Positions 28,856 to 35,967 of a stretch of 64,000 nt of DNA are shown piece by piece. Position numbers and translations under genes: made by a program. The notes below the pieces were generated by a model. It saw only the letters and a list, made by a program, of their open reading frames with translations. It did not search any database and had not been told where the DNA came from. The first letter of the stretch is position 1, and each line of letters begins with the position of its first letter. Location of the stretch: contig NZ_CP016768.2 in the NCBI RefSeq assembly GCF_002287885.2, positions 930,001 to 994,000 on the forward strand, read 5' to 3'. Origin of the DNA: Candidatus Nanopelagicus limnes (GTDB lineage: Bacteria; Actinomycetota; Actinomycetes; Nanopelagicales; Nanopelagicaceae).

Positions 28856-28932
28856 TGGTGTAGATGACGAGATTTGAACTCGCACCTTCAATTTGGCAAA
28901 AATAGATATGCTGCCAATTACAACACATCCAC
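28856..28932 (-). tRNA. tRNA-like sequence with encoded CCA, possibly tRNA-Gln or its pseudogene
   Basis: The minus strand gives a 7-bp acceptor stem (GTGGATG / CATCTAC with one G-U pair), a T-arm GCGAG-TTCAAAT-CTCGT, the D-arm TTGTAATTGGCAGCAT that matches actinobacterial tRNA-Gln, and an encoded ACCA end. The anticodon arm is poor. Aligned to tRNA-Gln the loop TTTTGCC reads UUG (Gln), but the stem has mismatches and the base after the anticodon is C. The alternative with one mismatch reads UGC. It could be the single tRNA-Gln(UUG) with an odd stem or a decayed copy. The 28738-29106 gap otherwise holds only the terminator and a 29001-29023 hairpin. Confidence 0.5.
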
Positions 28933-30468: not shown

Positions 30469-30795
30469 TTAACCAAGAAGCGGCCTAAGCTCAACCTTAC
30501 GATTACAAGCCTTAGATCCAGCAAATGCTAACTTTCTTGCTACATCAATACTTTCTGCCTGGATCAACCAAAAACCAGAGAAGTTCTCTTTGTTAGCAAA
30601 TAGTGGTTTTCCAGTGGACAAATTCGCATCATTTCGATTATCAATTACATCTGCACTCTCTGGAGAAGCGAGGCCGCCTGCAAAGATAAATTGCCCATTG
30701 ACCCGCAGTTGATCATTAAACTTATTTATCTCAGCCATTTCAGCTGGTCTGCCAGAGTTTGATTGATCATCTATTACGTTGATAATGAATTTCAT
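30469..30795 (-). CDS. YCII-related domain protein
   Basis: A 108-residue protein with the YciI-like ferredoxin fold: MKFIINVIDD at the start, NGQFIFAGGLASPESADV, and NFSGFWLIQAESIDVARKLA. The usual DGPFAE stretch is replaced by GKPLFANKE. Function unknown. Its start is only 15 bases from the distal copy of the rnpB end, so it marks the chromosome side of the island. Confidence 0.8.
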   Translation of the reverse strand: MKFIINVIDDQSNSGRPAEMAEINKFNDQLRVNGQFIFAGGLASPESADVIDNRNDANLSTGKPLFANKENFSGFWLIQAESIDVARKLAFAGSKACNRKVELRPLLG

Positions 30796-30810: not shown

Positions 30811-30832
30811 AAGAGTCGCCCTATAAGCCGGA
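30811..30832 (-). repeat. distal copy of the rnpB 3' end (att-like core)
   Basis: These 22 bases (AAGAGTCGCCCTATAA plus GCCGGA) are identical to the 3' end of rnpB at 35617-35638 and to 31513-31534. The identity stops abruptly on both sides here, which is what a site-specific recombination core at the far end of an insertion would look like. Confidence 0.8.
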
Positions 30833-30841
30833 AAGTTTGAA

Positions 30842-31303
30842 TTAGCTCACAATTTGGGGAGCACTAGCGTCTGCAATTCCCGACTTTGCTTGTTTCTCTA
30901 GCCCTGCTGTAACCGCAAAAGTATCTTCATAAACATCGAAGTCATATGCCTTGCCCCAGCGCAGTTTGATTACATGGATTCCAGGATTTACGTAAGGTTC
31001 TCCATTTTCAAGATTGCAGGTTGCTACCCATCGGGCAACAACTGTTGTGTTCCATGGCCCTCCTTGAACTAAAACACTTGTAACCTCAAACTTAAGATTT
31101 GGCAGCACAGTCCCTACTCGTTTGAACCATCGACTCATAGCTTCTTTGTCATGTCGGATGCCACCCAGTGAGTTAGGACCTGCAAAACGATGGGTGAGGT
31201 TGGTAGAGGACACACCCTTTAACACTTCTTCATAATTGTGATTTTGGACGGCAAGAAAAGTTTTACGTACCAATTTCTCAACGATTGAACTGTAAATAAG
31301 CAT
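30842..31303 (-). CDS. SnoaL-like (NTF2 fold) protein
   Basis: A 153-residue protein with the alpha+beta cone of the SnoaL/ketosteroid-isomerase-like group: an N-terminal helix pair, AMSRWFKRVGTVLPNLKFEV, VARWVATC and the ending LRWGKAYDFDVYED. A catalytic role on a small hydrophobic molecule or simple ligand binding is possible. The ATG at 31303 has a good AAGGGGA ribosome site. It is the only gene of the small inserted unit; its promoter should lie in the adjoining conserved segment. Confidence 0.75.
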   Translation of the reverse strand: MLIYSSIVEKLVRKTFLAVQNHNYEEVLKGVSSTNLTHRFAGPNSLGGIRHDKEAMSRWFKRVGTVLPNLKFEVTSVLVQGGPWNTTVVARWVATCNLENGEPYVNPGIHVIKLRWGKAYDFDVYEDTFAVTAGLEKQAKSGIADASAPQIVS

Positions 31304-31352
31304 GTGCTTTTGTCCCCTTCAAGGAGTTATCATTGACAATACTAAACACCAA

Positions 31353-31534
31353 GAAGTTGTTTGAAGTCAAAAATCTGCCCATAGAACTGCCCATATTTGC
31401 CCATGGTTTCCCCATAAAAACATTCAAATCTGCGACAGGTTTTGTCATAACTTGTACAACAAATATGCAGAAAGGTGAGCGCAGTTTTAACCTGCACCCA
31501 CCTAATTGGAAGAAGAGTCGCCCTATAAGCCGGA
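31353..31534. repeat. 182-bp direct repeat, copy 1 (rnpB end, terminator, TGCCCAT motifs)
   Basis: This segment matches 35457-35638 with no net gap and 16 differences by my count (about 91% identity). It contains the 22-bp rnpB end, a copy of the rnpB terminator hairpin (31473-31503, still able to pair through G-U), the palindrome TTGTACAA (31452-31459) and three TGCCCAT motifs (31376, 31388, 31398). Frames crossing it are not genes. Confidence 0.92.
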
Positions 31535-31701
31535 GACGACATTGTTATGCGTGAAGCTACGCTCAAACAGTTCAATTGCCCTCAATATTGCCCCCAAAGA
31601 TTGAGCAAGTTCTGCAATCAATAAAGAAGACTCATAACACTAGGACTGCGATCTACGAACTTTCTAACTAACTCTCGGCCACCCAGCGCCAGGAGTCTTT
31701 T

Positions 31702-32256
31702 CTATGGTAATCCTTGCTGGTCCTTAACGGAATTGTATTTGTACTTCCAAACACTTTCTGCACCTGAATGGCCAACTACATAGGTCATTCCAATCGCACA
31801 AACCGCCAGAAAAGCCATTAGAACTCCTAGGCTTGATGACGCTATCTTGCTTTTCTTATAGAAAGAAAAATATGAAAAAAGTACAAATGAGGATACGAGT
31901 GCAATGGCAAGTAAGACTAGGTAATTGCCCCACTGTGCATGAGACTTTGGAAGACCTACTACGGCCGATAGCGAGTATCCAGACGACTTGGCAGCAAGAA
32001 CGCCTACTACAGAAAGTGCAAGTGCTCCTATAAGGGGAAGATGTAACTTCTTAAGTAGATTTTTCCAAAAAAGTCCTGCAAGCAGAAGAATTGCAAGCAA
32101 TGGCAAAAGAACTACTACGCCATGAATTATCAGCGGGTGCGCTGGCAATTCTCCAAATTCGGCCCAAACTCCACTTGGCAGGAAGTAAGTAACAATAATA
32201 ATTAGCGTTGAAACAATTGTGACTATCAAAAACTTTCGCATTGATGACAATCCCAT
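31702..32256 (-). CDS. DUF2231-type membrane protein
   Basis: A 184-residue protein with about five membrane segments, the first probably a signal anchor. It shares the pattern LPAHPLIIHG, VGLPKSHAQWG and VGHSGAESVWK with the DUF2231-cytochrome b5 protein at 39543-40376. The four histidines (40, 45, 106, 163) are conserved between the two and sit near membrane helix ends, as haem ligands might. I infer a haem-containing membrane electron carrier. The neighbouring Rieske gene, 18 bases upstream, would be a natural partner. Confidence 0.75.
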   Translation of the reverse strand: MGLSSMRKFLIVTIVSTLIIIVTYFLPSGVWAEFGELPAHPLIIHGVVVLLPLLAILLLAGLFWKNLLKKLHLPLIGALALSVVGVLAAKSSGYSLSAVVGLPKSHAQWGNYLVLLAIALVSSFVLFSYFSFYKKSKIASSSLGVLMAFLAVCAIGMTYVVGHSGAESVWKYKYNSVKDQQGLP

Positions 32257-32274
32257 CTATATGCTCAGGCTTAA

Positions 32275-32688
32275 TTACCCGATGGTGGCTAGACCTTTTG
32301 AGATCTTCATTGGTACCCGAGCCAGCCCTGTCGTGGCTGGACCTAACGCCAAATCGCCGTCAGATTCGAATTCAGAGCCATGGGCATTGCAAACCCACCC
32401 TTTCTCATTTTGCGTGACAGTTACCTTTTGATGCGGGCATAAAAGATTAAAGGCAATGTATTTAGAGGTGCCAGTGCGAGCGATCGCAACTGGCACCCCC
32501 TTTACAGAACCAATCCTTGTTGCTCCACCAACTTTTGCCAATGCAGGCACCGCCTTTAGATCAACCGATAGACGGCCACCAGGAAGTTTCTTCACCGCTG
32601 TATTCGCTGCAGCGGGGACCTCACTTCCACCTAATGCGACAACTGCACAAACACCAGCAAGGAAAGAACGACGTGAGATTGGTTCCAT
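32275..32688 (-). CDS. Tat-exported Rieske [2Fe-2S] protein
   Basis: A 137-residue protein with a twin-arginine signal (SRRSFLAGVCAVVALGG) and a Rieske cluster site with CPH and CNAH (LLCPHQKVTV, WVCNAHGSEF), the CxH...CxxH pattern. It should be folded with its cluster and then exported. It is close to the DUF2231 gene and nine bases from a secreted-protein gene, suggesting a small extracytoplasmic redox unit. It is much smaller than the Rieske subunit of actinobacterial bcc complexes and has no membrane helices beyond the signal. Confidence 0.92.
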   Translation of the reverse strand: MEPISRRSFLAGVCAVVALGGSEVPAAANTAVKKLPGGRLSVDLKAVPALAKVGGATRIGSVKGVPVAIARTGTSKYIAFNLLCPHQKVTVTQNEKGWVCNAHGSEFESDGDLALGPATTGLARVPMKISKGLATIG

Positions 32689-32697
32689 TTTGATCCC

Positions 32698-33309
32698 TTA
32701 CTTCAGCTTGCTATAAAGAGTTACATCAGCTGTTCCAAAAGCCAAGCCATCTGGCAATGAACCTGCTGGTAAACCCAGCACCGATGCGATCGTTGCAGCT
32801 ACTCCTGGAGCAAGTACCAATGTGGTGCCTGCGTAAGCAGTTGTGCGCTGCTTTGCCTTCTTATCATTTGTGATCTTTGGCTTTGCAGTTGATGCATTGG
32901 TGATTGTCAAAATATCTACTTTTGCATCTCCTGCCTGAGGAACAGTTGCTGAAACAACACCCTTTGCTAGATCGATAACTGGATTTTTAAGTGTGAGGTA
33001 TTGGTTGTTTGCTGTATTGAAGAAAATAATATTGCTTCCAACATGTTGAACACCAGCCTTATTTGCAGTTACTGGGATGTGAAAAACAACCTGGCTGGTT
33101 GCCGCACTCAGATTGTCACCAATAACAGCAGAAGTTGCTCCACCTTGAACATAAAGAATTACTCCTGCTGCTTCAAGAGTTGATGCAACTCCTGCAGCGG
33201 TCTTCATGTGGGTCATGCTTTGACCAGGCTTTGCAGAATCTGCAAAGGCCACATTTGAGCTTAGAACTAAACCAATTACAGTCGCAATACTTACAATTAC
33301 TTTACGCAT
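32698..33309 (-). CDS. secreted protein of unknown function
   Basis: A 203-residue protein with a Sec signal peptide (MRKVIVSIATVIGLVLSSNVAFA). The mature part is rich in beta-strand-like stretches (VVFHIPVTANKAG, YLTLKNPVIDLAKGVV), somewhat reminiscent of HtaA-type or other actinobacterial surface proteins with a conserved IDL-x-KG turn; I do not recognise the family with certainty. It sits between the Rieske and DUF305 genes in a tight operon. Confidence 0.65.
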   Translation of the reverse strand: MRKVIVSIATVIGLVLSSNVAFADSAKPGQSMTHMKTAAGVASTLEAAGVILYVQGGATSAVIGDNLSAATSQVVFHIPVTANKAGVQHVGSNIIFFNTANNQYLTLKNPVIDLAKGVVSATVPQAGDAKVDILTITNASTAKPKITNDKKAKQRTTAYAGTTLVLAPGVAATIASVLGLPAGSLPDGLAFGTADVTLYSKLK

Positions 33310-33320
33310 TCAATTTCTCC

Positions 33321-33863
33321 TTATTTTAATTTATTAAGTAGTAGTTTCATGGAAGTTATTTCTTTACTTTGTGCGGATTTGATTGCTTTGGCAAGTGCCT
33401 TAGCTTCCGCATTTCTGGAGTCAGAAATTAGATCAAGCATTTCAATTGCCCCCTGATGATGCTTGATCATCAGTTGCAGGAATGTCCGATCGAACTGGGT
33501 TCCAGTCAGACGTTTCAGTGAAGCAAGTTCCTTCGTAGTTAACATGCCAGACATCTGCATATCGTGGTCCATGGTCATTGAAGAATCTGTCGCTTTCAGC
33601 CAATAAGCCAACTGTGACTTTTCGGTGCCTTGAAGGCTCTTTATCTGGTTAGAGAGTTTCAAAATTGCCTGGTTGCGACTCTTCTTGAGAGCGGTTTCCG
33701 ACATAGAAATCGCTTGTTCATGATGCGGAATCATCATCTGTGCAAACATGATTTCATTCATGCCTAGATTTTGTAATGACTTTGCATGCGTCGAAGCATT
33801 AGCGCCACTTGGAATCAGAATGACTCCAACAGCCAACAATAAAACACTGATTTTTTTCAGCAT
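33321..33863 (-). CDS. secreted DUF305 protein
   Basis: A 180-residue protein with a Sec signal peptide ending GANA and one DUF305 domain, seen in MIPHHEQAISMSETAL and LMIKHHQGAIEMLDLI. The two HH pairs and several Met residues (MTMDHDMQMSGM) suit copper binding. DUF305 proteins often sit in copper-resistance loci. It is the upstream gene of a four-gene block ending with DUF2231. Confidence 0.9.
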   Translation of the reverse strand: MLKKISVLLLAVGVILIPSGANASTHAKSLQNLGMNEIMFAQMMIPHHEQAISMSETALKKSRNQAILKLSNQIKSLQGTEKSQLAYWLKATDSSMTMDHDMQMSGMLTTKELASLKRLTGTQFDRTFLQLMIKHHQGAIEMLDLISDSRNAEAKALAKAIKSAQSKEITSMKLLLNKLK

Positions 33864-33904
33864 AAAATTCCTTTCTCGTAGTTAATTTCTGGACGAGAGA
33901 AGAA

Positions 33905-34330
33905 TTAGATGCGAATTATCCCCAACTGAAGATGATTTAAATTGAGATAACCCAGATTTTTAGACAGAAATAGGGGTACGTGATATCTCGGTAGAGAAAA
34001 TCGCTTCGCCGTGAGGGTTGATCTAATCGCACGTGAGAAGCGAAGCAATAGCAAAACGATGAACCCGACCACAACACATATTTCACTGCTGAGCGTGCTT
34101 CCCACAGAGAACAGAGTTTCTTGAGAATTTGAAGCAGCGCTGGTGGTTATTTGAGGTGAATGGCTATGTGTGTGCCCTGCGTGGCTACTAACTGCCTCAG
34201 ATTGGCTAGTCGGTTGCACCGCCGATGCAACATGGCAGTCAGGTGCTGCTGCAGCTCCTGTGCTAAAAAGAAGAAAAAGGGCAGCAAGGGGCACGGCTAA
34301 CCATCTGGCTTTCATACCCCTTAGCAGCAT
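33905..34330 (-). CDS. His-rich exported membrane protein
   Basis: A 141-residue protein with a signal peptide (VPLAALFLLFSTGAAAA), a His-rich stretch SSHAGHTHSHSPQ that could bind copper, one membrane helix (ICVVVGFIVLLLLRF) and a short tail. The layout resembles small copper-inducible actinobacterial proteins (LpqS or DUF6153 type), which is a tentative match from memory. An ATG at 34315 is an alternative start. Confidence 0.6.
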   Translation of the reverse strand: MLLRGMKARWLAVPLAALFLLFSTGAAAAPDCHVASAVQPTSQSEAVSSHAGHTHSHSPQITTSAASNSQETLFSVGSTLSSEICVVVGFIVLLLLRFSRAIRSTLTAKRFSLPRYHVPLFLSKNLGYLNLNHLQLGIIRI

Positions 34331-34518
34331 TGAAGAAGGTTAAAGGATAAACGAGAGTAATTCCAAGTGAAAATTGGTGTGTCTCTACAAAAAGTGGGTT
34401 CTCTTCGCCTCGGAGTGAGAAAGGACACTCATAAATGCAGGGGTGTCCTTGTCGTGATTGAACTTTGCTTTTCGCTCTTAGAAAAACCCAAGTATCGAAA
34501 ATCTTCAGAAAGTTTTAG

Positions 34519-34722
34519 CTACTTAACGACAGAGTAACCAGCTCTTTGCACAGCAAGCTCAATAGATTCTTGTGAGATTTCAACTTCGGATTCAACTATA
34601 ACGTTCGCTTTTTCGGCACTGGCGATAACTTCTGTAACTCCAGGTATTGTCAGGATTTCACTTGTCACCCGTCCTTCACAATGCCCACATGTCATACCCT
34701 TGACTTCGAATGTCTTATTCAT
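34519..34722 (-). CDS. copper chaperone (HMA domain, CopZ-like)
   Basis: A 67-residue single HMA domain. The metal site is GMTCGHCEGRV. Such proteins carry Cu(I) in the cytoplasm, normally to a CopA ATPase; no ATPase is in this island or elsewhere in the window. The 188 bases after it (34331-34518) contain no gene but have a hairpin with stem AAGGACAC / GTGTCCTT at 34421-34450. Confidence 0.93.
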   Translation of the reverse strand: MNKTFEVKGMTCGHCEGRVTSEILTIPGVTEVIASAEKANVIVESEVEISQESIELAVQRAGYSVVK

Positions 34723-34765
34723 TAAAACTCCCCACTTCTGTTTCTAGATTTATAAAGTTTATCAA

Positions 34766-35395
34766 TTACGCACTCATCCGACTGAGTATTTTTTTCATCT
34801 GCTCTATTTCGACAGTTTGAACAGAGATGATTACTTTTCCAAAGTTTCGAAATTCTGGGCGGTTCGAGTCCCTAATCATCGTAACCATATGCAGGGCGCC
34901 TTCATGGTGGGTGATCATGCCCCTAAGCCAGTAAGCATCAAATTTTGAGCCGCTGAGAGAGTTAAGGGTACTTAATTCAGACTCAGTGAGCATTCCACCC
35001 ATTCCATCACCCATCGAGTGGTTCATTCCGTGGCCCATCATTGAACTATCGCCAGCATCTAGAAGCCAATTTTTCATTTGAATAATCTCGGCGGCTTGTC
35101 CATCTCTGATTTTCTGAGCCAATTCAACAAGTTCGGTGTCTTTGGAGCGAGCGATGGCCAGATCAGAGATATCAACGGCTTGTTGGTGATGAGGAATCAT
35201 CATTTCAAAAAACATTACATCTGAACCAAGCAAACTGGAGTTCGTTGAGTTGTTTTCTCCATCCATGGCTGAGTGGTTCATCCCAAACAAACCTGAAGAG
35301 CCATTTTGAGTACCCATTAAGAAAATAATGACGCCAATGAGTACTGCTATGACCCCTGATAAAATTCCATTTTTCTTGTCGATATTGATTTGCAT
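34766..35395 (-). CDS. DUF305 protein, membrane-anchored
   Basis: A 209-residue protein with an N-terminal membrane helix (SGVIAVLIGVIIFLMG), then a His/Met-rich linker (FGMNHSAMDG) and a DUF305 domain (MMIPHHQQAVDISDLAI, MITHHEGALHMV). The middle has GHGMNHSMGDGMGGM, a good metal-binding stretch. I chose the ATG at 35395; the open frame continues to an ATG at 35452, but those 19 residues look non-coding. It is the rnpB-proximal gene of the large unit, 61 bases from the conserved segment. Confidence 0.85.
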   Translation of the reverse strand: MQINIDKKNGILSGVIAVLIGVIIFLMGTQNGSSGLFGMNHSAMDGENNSTNSSLLGSDVMFFEMMIPHHQQAVDISDLAIARSKDTELVELAQKIRDGQAAEIIQMKNWLLDAGDSSMMGHGMNHSMGDGMGGMLTESELSTLNSLSGSKFDAYWLRGMITHHEGALHMVTMIRDSNRPEFRNFGKVIISVQTVEIEQMKKILSRMSA

Positions 35396-35456
35396 GACCC
35401 ACCACCTATCTGTACTTAAACATACTCGTAAATTCTGAAGGTTGCCTGCCACAAGC

Positions 35457-35638
35457 GAAGTTGTTTGTAGTCAGAATTCTGCCCATAGAAATGCCCATAT
35501 TTGCCCATTGATTCCCCATAAAAACATCTAAATCTGCGACAGGTTATGTAACAACTTGTACAAACAAAATGCAGAAAGGTGAGCGCAGTTTTAACCTGCG
35601 CCCACCTAATTAGAAGAAGAGTCGCCCTATAAGCCGGA
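35457..35638. repeat. 182-bp direct repeat, copy 2, at the rnpB 3' end
   Basis: This copy contains the true 3' end of rnpB and continues through its terminator into a segment with TTGTACAA (35556-35563) and TGCCCAT motifs. It matches 31353-31534 at an exact distance of 4104 bp. See the copy 1 entry for the comparison. Confidence 0.92.
35577..35607 (-). terminator. rnpB terminator
   Basis: A 12-bp stem (AGGTGGGCGCAG / CTGCGCTCACCT on the minus strand, one G-U pair) with loop GTTAAAA, followed by TTTCTGCATTTTG. It starts nine bases after the rnpB 3' end. Confidence 0.8.
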
Positions 35639-35967
35639 TCCTGTTCTCTTGCGAGAGATCATCATCCATCTAGATCTGTAATTGCTTACAGATTCAAGCA
35701 ACCTACCCGTTGACTCGAGCGAGTAGCTCTCAAATGCCAACAATCTGGTCTTGCTCCAGGTGGGGTTTACCTAGCCATATACGTTGCCGTAAATGCTGGT
35801 GGTCTCTTACACCACCGTTTCATCCTTACCATTATTGCTAATGGCGGTTTATTTTCTGTGGCACTAATCCCGCAGGTTACCCTGGATGGCCATTAGCCAT
35901 CACCTTACTCTTTGGAGTCCGGACTTTCCTCGGTATTTTCATAACGCGATGATCCAGACGACTCTTC
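35616..35967 (-). ncRNA. rnpB: RNase P RNA, bacterial type A
   Basis: The catalytic RNA that trims tRNA 5' ends, about 352 nt on the minus strand. The P1 helix pairs GAAGAGTCG at 35959-35967 with CGACTCTTC at 35616-35624. The conserved core segments GAGGAAAGTCCGGACTCC near the 5' end and GGATCCGGCTTATAGGGCG near the 3' end are present. A TATCAT box at 35975-35980 is eight bases before the 5' end, a good -10. Its 3' end is the target of the downstream insertions. Confidence 0.96.

Follow-up and report, generated by a model that had tools for sequence, protein, structure and literature searches.

The window, a stretch of 64,000 nucleotides (G000:C1:930001-994000) from the complete, 1.24 Mb genome of Candidatus Nanopelagicus limnes, carries the class A RNase P RNA gene, rnpB, on the minus strand at 35614..35965 (Rfam RF00010). 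With a score of 310 bits the gene is full length, i.e., the target gene is restored, and its 3′ end contains a 22 bp core sequence (AAGAGTCGCCCTATAAGCCGGA) at 35617..35638. Two more exact copies of the core lie at 31513..31534 and 30811..30832 (all three on the minus strand, with no mismatches), the last of which shows one mismatch in the relative G067. The expected number of cores in shuffled sequence is zero, even when three mismatches are allowed. These direct copies of the rnpB 3′ end delimit two units, each counted from the base that follows one core through the last base of its neighbour: F2 (31535..35638, 4104 bp), which adjoins rnpB, and F1 (30833..31534, 702 bp). A YCII-like gene (30469..30795, minus strand; Pfam E-value 7e-6) lies directly outside the array, and is found at the same place in G067.

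Unit F1, also on the minus strand, consists of a core, an arm and one gene, and recurs in the genomes G066, G067, G123 and G255. Its sole ORF (30842..31303, minus strand) encodes a SnoaL-like protein of 153 aa (Pfam SnoaL_2, E-value 7e-9). A preliminary description of this DNA had proposed a 702 bp one-gene cassette next to rnpB, the gene of which stops nine bases from a core, and had placed the attachment site at the end of a structural RNA. All of this is upheld: a single ORF is enclosed by exact cores, its stop is nine bases from the core at 30811-30832, and the core at 35617-35638 is the rnpB 3′ end. The conserved arm (31353..31512, 160 bp, minus strand) is 90% identical to the arm of F2 at 35457..35616, and contains four TGCCCA/TCCCCA repeats starting at 31376, 31388, 31398 and 31409. 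As TGGGCA-type repeats these span 31376-31414 with a spacing of 11-10-12, the first being 98 nt from the core. A P arm was sought on the 702 bp unit and is absent, so that F1 carries an arm on one side only.

Unit F2 contains seven genes, without an integrase, all on the minus strand. Nearest to its arm is a gene for a DUF305 protein of 228 aa (34766..35452; Pfam E-value 6e-42), followed by genes for a heavy-metal-associated (HMA) domain protein of 67 aa (34519..34722; E-value 1e-12), a 141 aa protein without a Pfam family (33905..34330), a second DUF305 protein of 180 aa (33321..33863; E-value 4e-38), a 203 aa protein, again without a Pfam family (32698..33309), a Rieske [2Fe-2S] protein (32275..32688; E-value 1e-9) and a DUF2231 membrane protein (31702..32256; E-value 2e-8). 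The repeats of the F2 arm (minus strand) are located at 35480-35518 and share the 11-10-12 spacing. By its distal core F2 also has a P-like arm (31577..31595), which aligns with the P arms at position -60 of other units and comprises a pair of GGGCA-type repeats at a distance of 12 bp (TGAGGGCAA and TGGGGGCAA, minus strand).

In G123, a genome of another genus, F2 is 99.95% identical to the copy in the window, with 2 mismatches in 4104 bp, and the match extends exactly from core to core. Outside F2 the two genomes differ far more, with 36 mismatches across the 250 bp that precede the left core on its upstream side and 116 mismatches in the 300 bp past F1; mismatches restart 25 bases into the next unit, directly after the core, and the DNA upstream of rnpB is 65–80% identical where it can be aligned. 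The close relative G067 has the order rnpB-core-F1-core-YCII gene, with F2 exactly absent, and the flanks of the window, when joined without F2, align continuously to G067 over 2.7 kb at 94.6% identity. The breaks in identity at the cores and the exact empty site in G067 together indicate site-specific insertion at the rnpB core. A further genome, G177, carries an integrase element, then a core, then F2, consecutively.

A survey of 296 Nanopelagicaceae genomes (one per species, including many MAGs with breaks inside the array) found the core, with at most two mismatches, in 179, and the reversed control pattern in none. At least two copies are present in 15 of the 17 single-contig genomes, and the cores within one array are nearly all in the same orientation. 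From about 60 loci, 155 core-to-core units could be closed (median 709 bp; 10th–90th percentile, 378–4042 bp), with genes called from ORFs; as bounding cores were allowed up to four mismatches, older cores went undetected, and a few of the long units could be composites. By sequence the 155 units group into 110 families, which for the most part carry different genes, and 23 of these families recur in different genomes, often with other neighbours. One-gene units carry genes for SMR efflux, GNAT, ASCH, TipAS, glyoxalase/bleomycin-resistance-like, DoxX, DinB, metallo-beta-lactamase-fold and isochorismatase-like proteins, as well as unknown genes. Their genes are oriented in the direction of rnpB in a ratio of 41:14 (p 4e-4), typically start 15–60 nt after the core and often stop within about 10 nt of the next one, and in several the stop codon is supplied by the core itself. 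The arrays occupy the same location, an RNA gene, across species, and variable cassettes are added there, as in an additive flexible genomic island.

This family-wide census makes it clear that the cargo between the constant repeats does vary. The preliminary description had raised the case that different single genes might lie between these repeats in other genomes, and they do. The pattern that it named as support for a cassette, variable cargo with constant arms, holds for the cargo and for the core, but an arm is found in only 29 of 218 core-headed segments (about 13%). The SnoaL-like gene would have spoken against a cassette had it invariably occupied this place; instead, its position and neighbourhood are different in G066, G123 and G255, and in many other arrays it was not detected. 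Outside the family a single match to the core was found in 4 of 302 genomes of the class, and never two, a scan that is limited to this core sequence because rnpB ends diverge. Viral contigs contained no exact cores, and a search of plasmids with the two-unit region gave no match.

Some inner cores (at loci L078, L087, L089 and L075) are preceded by about 110–130 bp of rnpB 3′ sequence rather than by the 22 bp alone, so that some elements carry a longer rnpB end. At locus L060 (G019:C19:1-12000) a single contig has two rnpB-like sequences of nearly full length. They are 78% and 85% identical to the rnpB of the window, each is followed by cores, and they represent either an element with its own rnpB or a mis-assembly.

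Clustered TGGGCA-type repeats follow the core in 29 units, compared to none in shuffled sequences and none in 135 internal windows. Nearly all armed units have their first repeat +95 to +98 from the core, and the 11-10-12 spacing of F1 and F2 is common to many other units and to an integrase-encoding element at rnpB in G195, where the repeat reads ATGGGCA and the distance is +96. An 11.1 kb integrase element in G115 has a spacing of 12-9-12, similar to that of units from G043 and G221 (12-8-12). In 11 of the 155 units (control, 1 of 1133 windows) a P arm was also detected, either 48 or 60 nt ahead of the distal core, and three small units of 566, 581 and 779 bp combine both arms with one gene. 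The G195 element, in which 31 bases separate the integrase stop from the core, also has no clear P arm, so one-armed sites may suffice. By their sequence and position the arm repeats are putative arm-type binding sites of an integrase.

Integrases of the G115 type, with at least 47% identity, are rare and number seven in total, in 6 of the 296 genomes, the next best match being 28% identical. Each of the seven is encoded on a contig that has an rnpB core next to it, and together they make up a single clade (support 100/99) in which the residues R-K-HxxR-H-Y are kept. They are of the phage integrase type, with PF00589 and PF14659 (core-binding SAM domain), and their catalytic residues, SAM domain and separate putative arm-type sites would fit a heterobivalent (lambda-type) enzyme. 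The elements also carry excisionase-like and replication-like genes, and none of the genes scanned could be recognised as structural or as belonging to conjugation. No relatives of the integrases were found in viral contigs, and the matches in phages are distant (27–29% identity only). The rnpB-type integrase is absent from the window genome, where the PF00589 proteins are two Xer-like proteins of about 310 aa, encoded at 383676 and 609335, far from rnpB. A pair of Xer-like PF00589 proteins is likewise the full set in ten complete relatives, the majority of which have arrays. A cognate integrase is thus found at cores in some members, seven times in all, and is lacking in decayed ones such as the window genome.

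Three related rnpB integrase elements (L141:282-2444, L142:264-2537 and L143) carry a gene for a long DUF4379 protein, and the one that was scanned, from L142, has nine DUF4379 treble-clef zinc-finger stretches. The 11.1 kb element of G115 includes a DNA methyltransferase-like and a helicase-like gene as a pair (L054:5404-10102), the sequences of which have the look of a restriction-modification system.

Within the arrays, the farther a core lies from rnpB the more mismatches it has (permutation within arrays, p 9e-4), although this trend could partly stem from the four-mismatch detection limit, and armed units are concentrated in the first two places near rnpB (17/76 versus 2/60; Fisher p 1e-3). 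The F1 gene occurs with an arm in units of 690–703 bp and without one in units of 572 and 592 bp, and the F3 gene is likewise found both with and without an arm. Also found were solo arms (about 210 bp) and the remnant C-terminus of an integrase. These observations fit a course in which units insert beside rnpB and afterwards lose their integrase, cargo and arms. F1, with one gene and one intact arm of the integrase-element type, would be an intermediate in such a series.

The array is probably a tandem accretion of rnpB-specific integrative elements and of integrase-less, progressively trimmed derivatives that are mobilised in trans. The rnpB 3′ end of Nanopelagicaceae would serve as attB for a dedicated clade of phage-type tyrosine integrases, and elements encoding the integrase would enter at the rnpB core, restore rnpB and displace earlier insertions outward. 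Integrase-less elements would retain the core and the arm-type sites, with the integrase coming in trans. Streamlining of the residents would then remove the integrase first, surplus cargo next and the arms last, and the end product would be a compact single gene between two cores. The integron-like look of the array would therefore be that of a tandem accretion of trimmed, cis-mobilizable elements. Comparison between genomes establishes the precise unit boundaries, the movement between genera, the variable cargo, the match of the arms and the linkage to integrases. From these we infer the action in trans, the order of trimming, the polarity of age and the mobility of one-armed and armless units. 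Insertion of the small units was apparently the work of a dedicated integrase, since lost from most of the carriers. Some findings weigh against this reading: the integrase elements are rare, no vehicle came to light among viral contigs, plasmids and phages, and the arm of F1 differs more between the window genome and G123 than its gene does. Armless cassettes, too, are found repeatedly in different genera, and may possibly be transported as passengers in composites. A stronger form, in which the family captures genes in an integron-like way, would have minimal one-gene cassettes with their own arms, such as the units of 566, 581 and 779 bp, arise and be mobilised in trans by a roaming rnpB integrase without any resident recombinase, and perhaps be expressed by read-through from rnpB; it is a tentative extension and rather doubtful.

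A true cassette system, in which armless one-gene units are the usual mobile form and move from core to core by a core-only recombinase in the style of integrons, or of Xer pdif modules with their dif-like XerC/XerD sites in alternating orientation, is an unlikely alternative. It would account for compact armless units that are found across genera with other neighbours, such as F5, with 89% identity along its whole length among G036, G043 and G233, or F8, 97% identical in G228 and G289, and for a cargo like that of integron cassettes (SMR, GNAT, glyoxalase/bleomycin-resistance-like, ASCH, DinB, TipAS). However, it leaves aside the arms at fixed positions, which match a heterobivalent integrase, and the clustering of armed units beside rnpB, and the resident tyrosine recombinases are solely Xer-like. 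Natural transformation with homologous recombination at conserved flanks, which would shuffle segments and leave the cores as fossils of old insertions, is considerably less probable still. The 160 bp arms of F1 and F2 could act as homology, and the F1 gene is near-identical between the window genome and G123 (differing by only about 1%) while the arm is not (about 13%), a pattern that simple transfer of the unit would not predict. On the other hand, the identity of F2 shifts sharply at both 22 bp cores with the upstream DNA diverged between the genera, and the empty site in G067 is exact. That these are ordinary chromosomal genes with repeats arising by chance or assembly is refuted by the results: several MAG contigs do end inside the array and leave it incomplete, but exact cores have zero expectation, the reversed control gave 0/296, many single-contig genomes carry arrays and the empty site is precise.

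The arrays work like known tandem accretions and resemble integrons in form. Integron cassette arrays, which are outlined in PMC4119200, consist of short, tightly packed one-gene units. Their attC sites fold as single strands with an R'-R'' structure, and the IntI integrase is encoded next to attI. The rnpB arrays share the short one-gene units, the tight packing, the orientation bias (41:14) and, apparently, growth at one end, so that the likeness to integron cassettes suggested by the preliminary description holds for size and economy. It does not extend to the sites or the enzyme: the repeats are direct 22 bp copies of the rnpB end and not attC, the integrase is phage-type, putatively arm-binding and encoded away from the array, and the only tyrosine recombinases of the window genome are the Xer-like proteins far from rnpB. 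With resident recombinases of this kind, direct rnpB cores and a putatively heterobivalent integrase elsewhere, the array is not an integron, and is classed with the known accretion systems.

The suggestion of a new class of cassette array is not supported in that form, as tandem accretion at the ends of structural RNA genes, down to one-gene segments, has published precedents (PMC10872708, PMC7771536, PMC3146451, PMC5704250), and as most cassettes have no constant arm. The fGI-2 of 'Ca. Methylopumilus' is an additive island at tRNA-Lys with 20-nt repeats, variable content and sizes of 330 bp to 42 kb, or 1 to 63 genes (PMC10872708). The hosts in both cases are streamlined freshwater bacteria and the content is variable; the present arrays differ in using rnpB and, as far as the description of fGI-2 goes, in their arm sites, matching integrase clade, age polarity and precise empty site (PMC10872708). 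The same paper summarises tycheposons as cargo elements of 4–200 kb at tRNA genes, which likewise place cargo at RNA genes, tied to a tyrosine recombinase, in streamlined plankton (PMC10872708). Here one-gene units are found at rnpB, and since the units are mostly below 1 kb and without a recombinase, they do not belong to the tycheposons.

The fGI1 cassettes of 'Ca. Actinomarinales' are a similar case of small cassettes with a terminal direct repeat of an RNA gene in streamlined actinobacteria, and transfer between genera has been reported for them at about 75% identity (PMC7771536). They use several tRNAs at an envelope-polysaccharide island, whereas the present system has one rnpB site, tandem core-flanked units and transfer at 99.95% identity (PMC7771536). 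The ssrA islands of Dehalococcoides are also tandem behind a structural RNA gene, with 20 bp direct repeats, and 15 of 31 are without an integration module and possibly cis-mobilizable (PMC3146451). They differ in their serine recombinase and in their vcr-island modules of 9–11 kb, compared to a tyrosine integrase and units mostly below 1 kb here (PMC3146451). In CIME accretion, decayed, cis-mobilizable elements derived from ICEs or IMEs keep attL and attR and are stacked by repeated integration at one site (PMC5704250). The rnpB units would be decayed and stacked in the same manner, but no ICE or conjugation genes were seen and the end products are one-gene units. Searches of the open-licence literature yielded no paper in which rnpB serves as the integration site.

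Actinobacteria of the acI lineage dominate lakes, and have genomes of about 1.2–1.5 Mb with few visible mobile elements. From the comparisons made here, the rnpB end is apparently a docking site for small, often one-gene units in variable arrays, and a single gene-swapping place. One defined site at which genes are gathered, with exchange between genera at 99.95% identity, offers a concrete locus for measuring how genes flow among streamlined bacteria. One-gene cassettes could plausibly derive from integrative elements by trimming, and the natural integrase and its attachment site could become a genetic tool for the hard-to-engineer acI bacteria.

In many arrays, distal units or flanks carry a tRNA that ARAGORN assigns to Gly, with anticodon ACC, and that is highly conserved across 10 sequences, as at L048:12331-12405 (minus strand), L037:16304-16378, L038:13406-13480, L035:10548-10622 and five more loci. 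To our knowledge, a glycine tRNA with this anticodon is unusual for bacteria. A 76% identical relative is present in the window at 28856-28932; ARAGORN reports it as tRNA-Ala(TGC), and its aligned loop reads GCC. Beside the tRNA-Gly(ACC) is a short noncoding motif, for which no Rfam family was matched, consisting of a promoter-like AT-rich stretch, GTTTGGTAGTAAT, a hairpin (GGGACTTGGTTAATNNCCAAGTCCC) and a T-run. It is repeated in tandem, with up to six clear copies per locus (L037:11398, 11488, 16085 and 16176; L082:199, 289, 2875 and 5941; and others).
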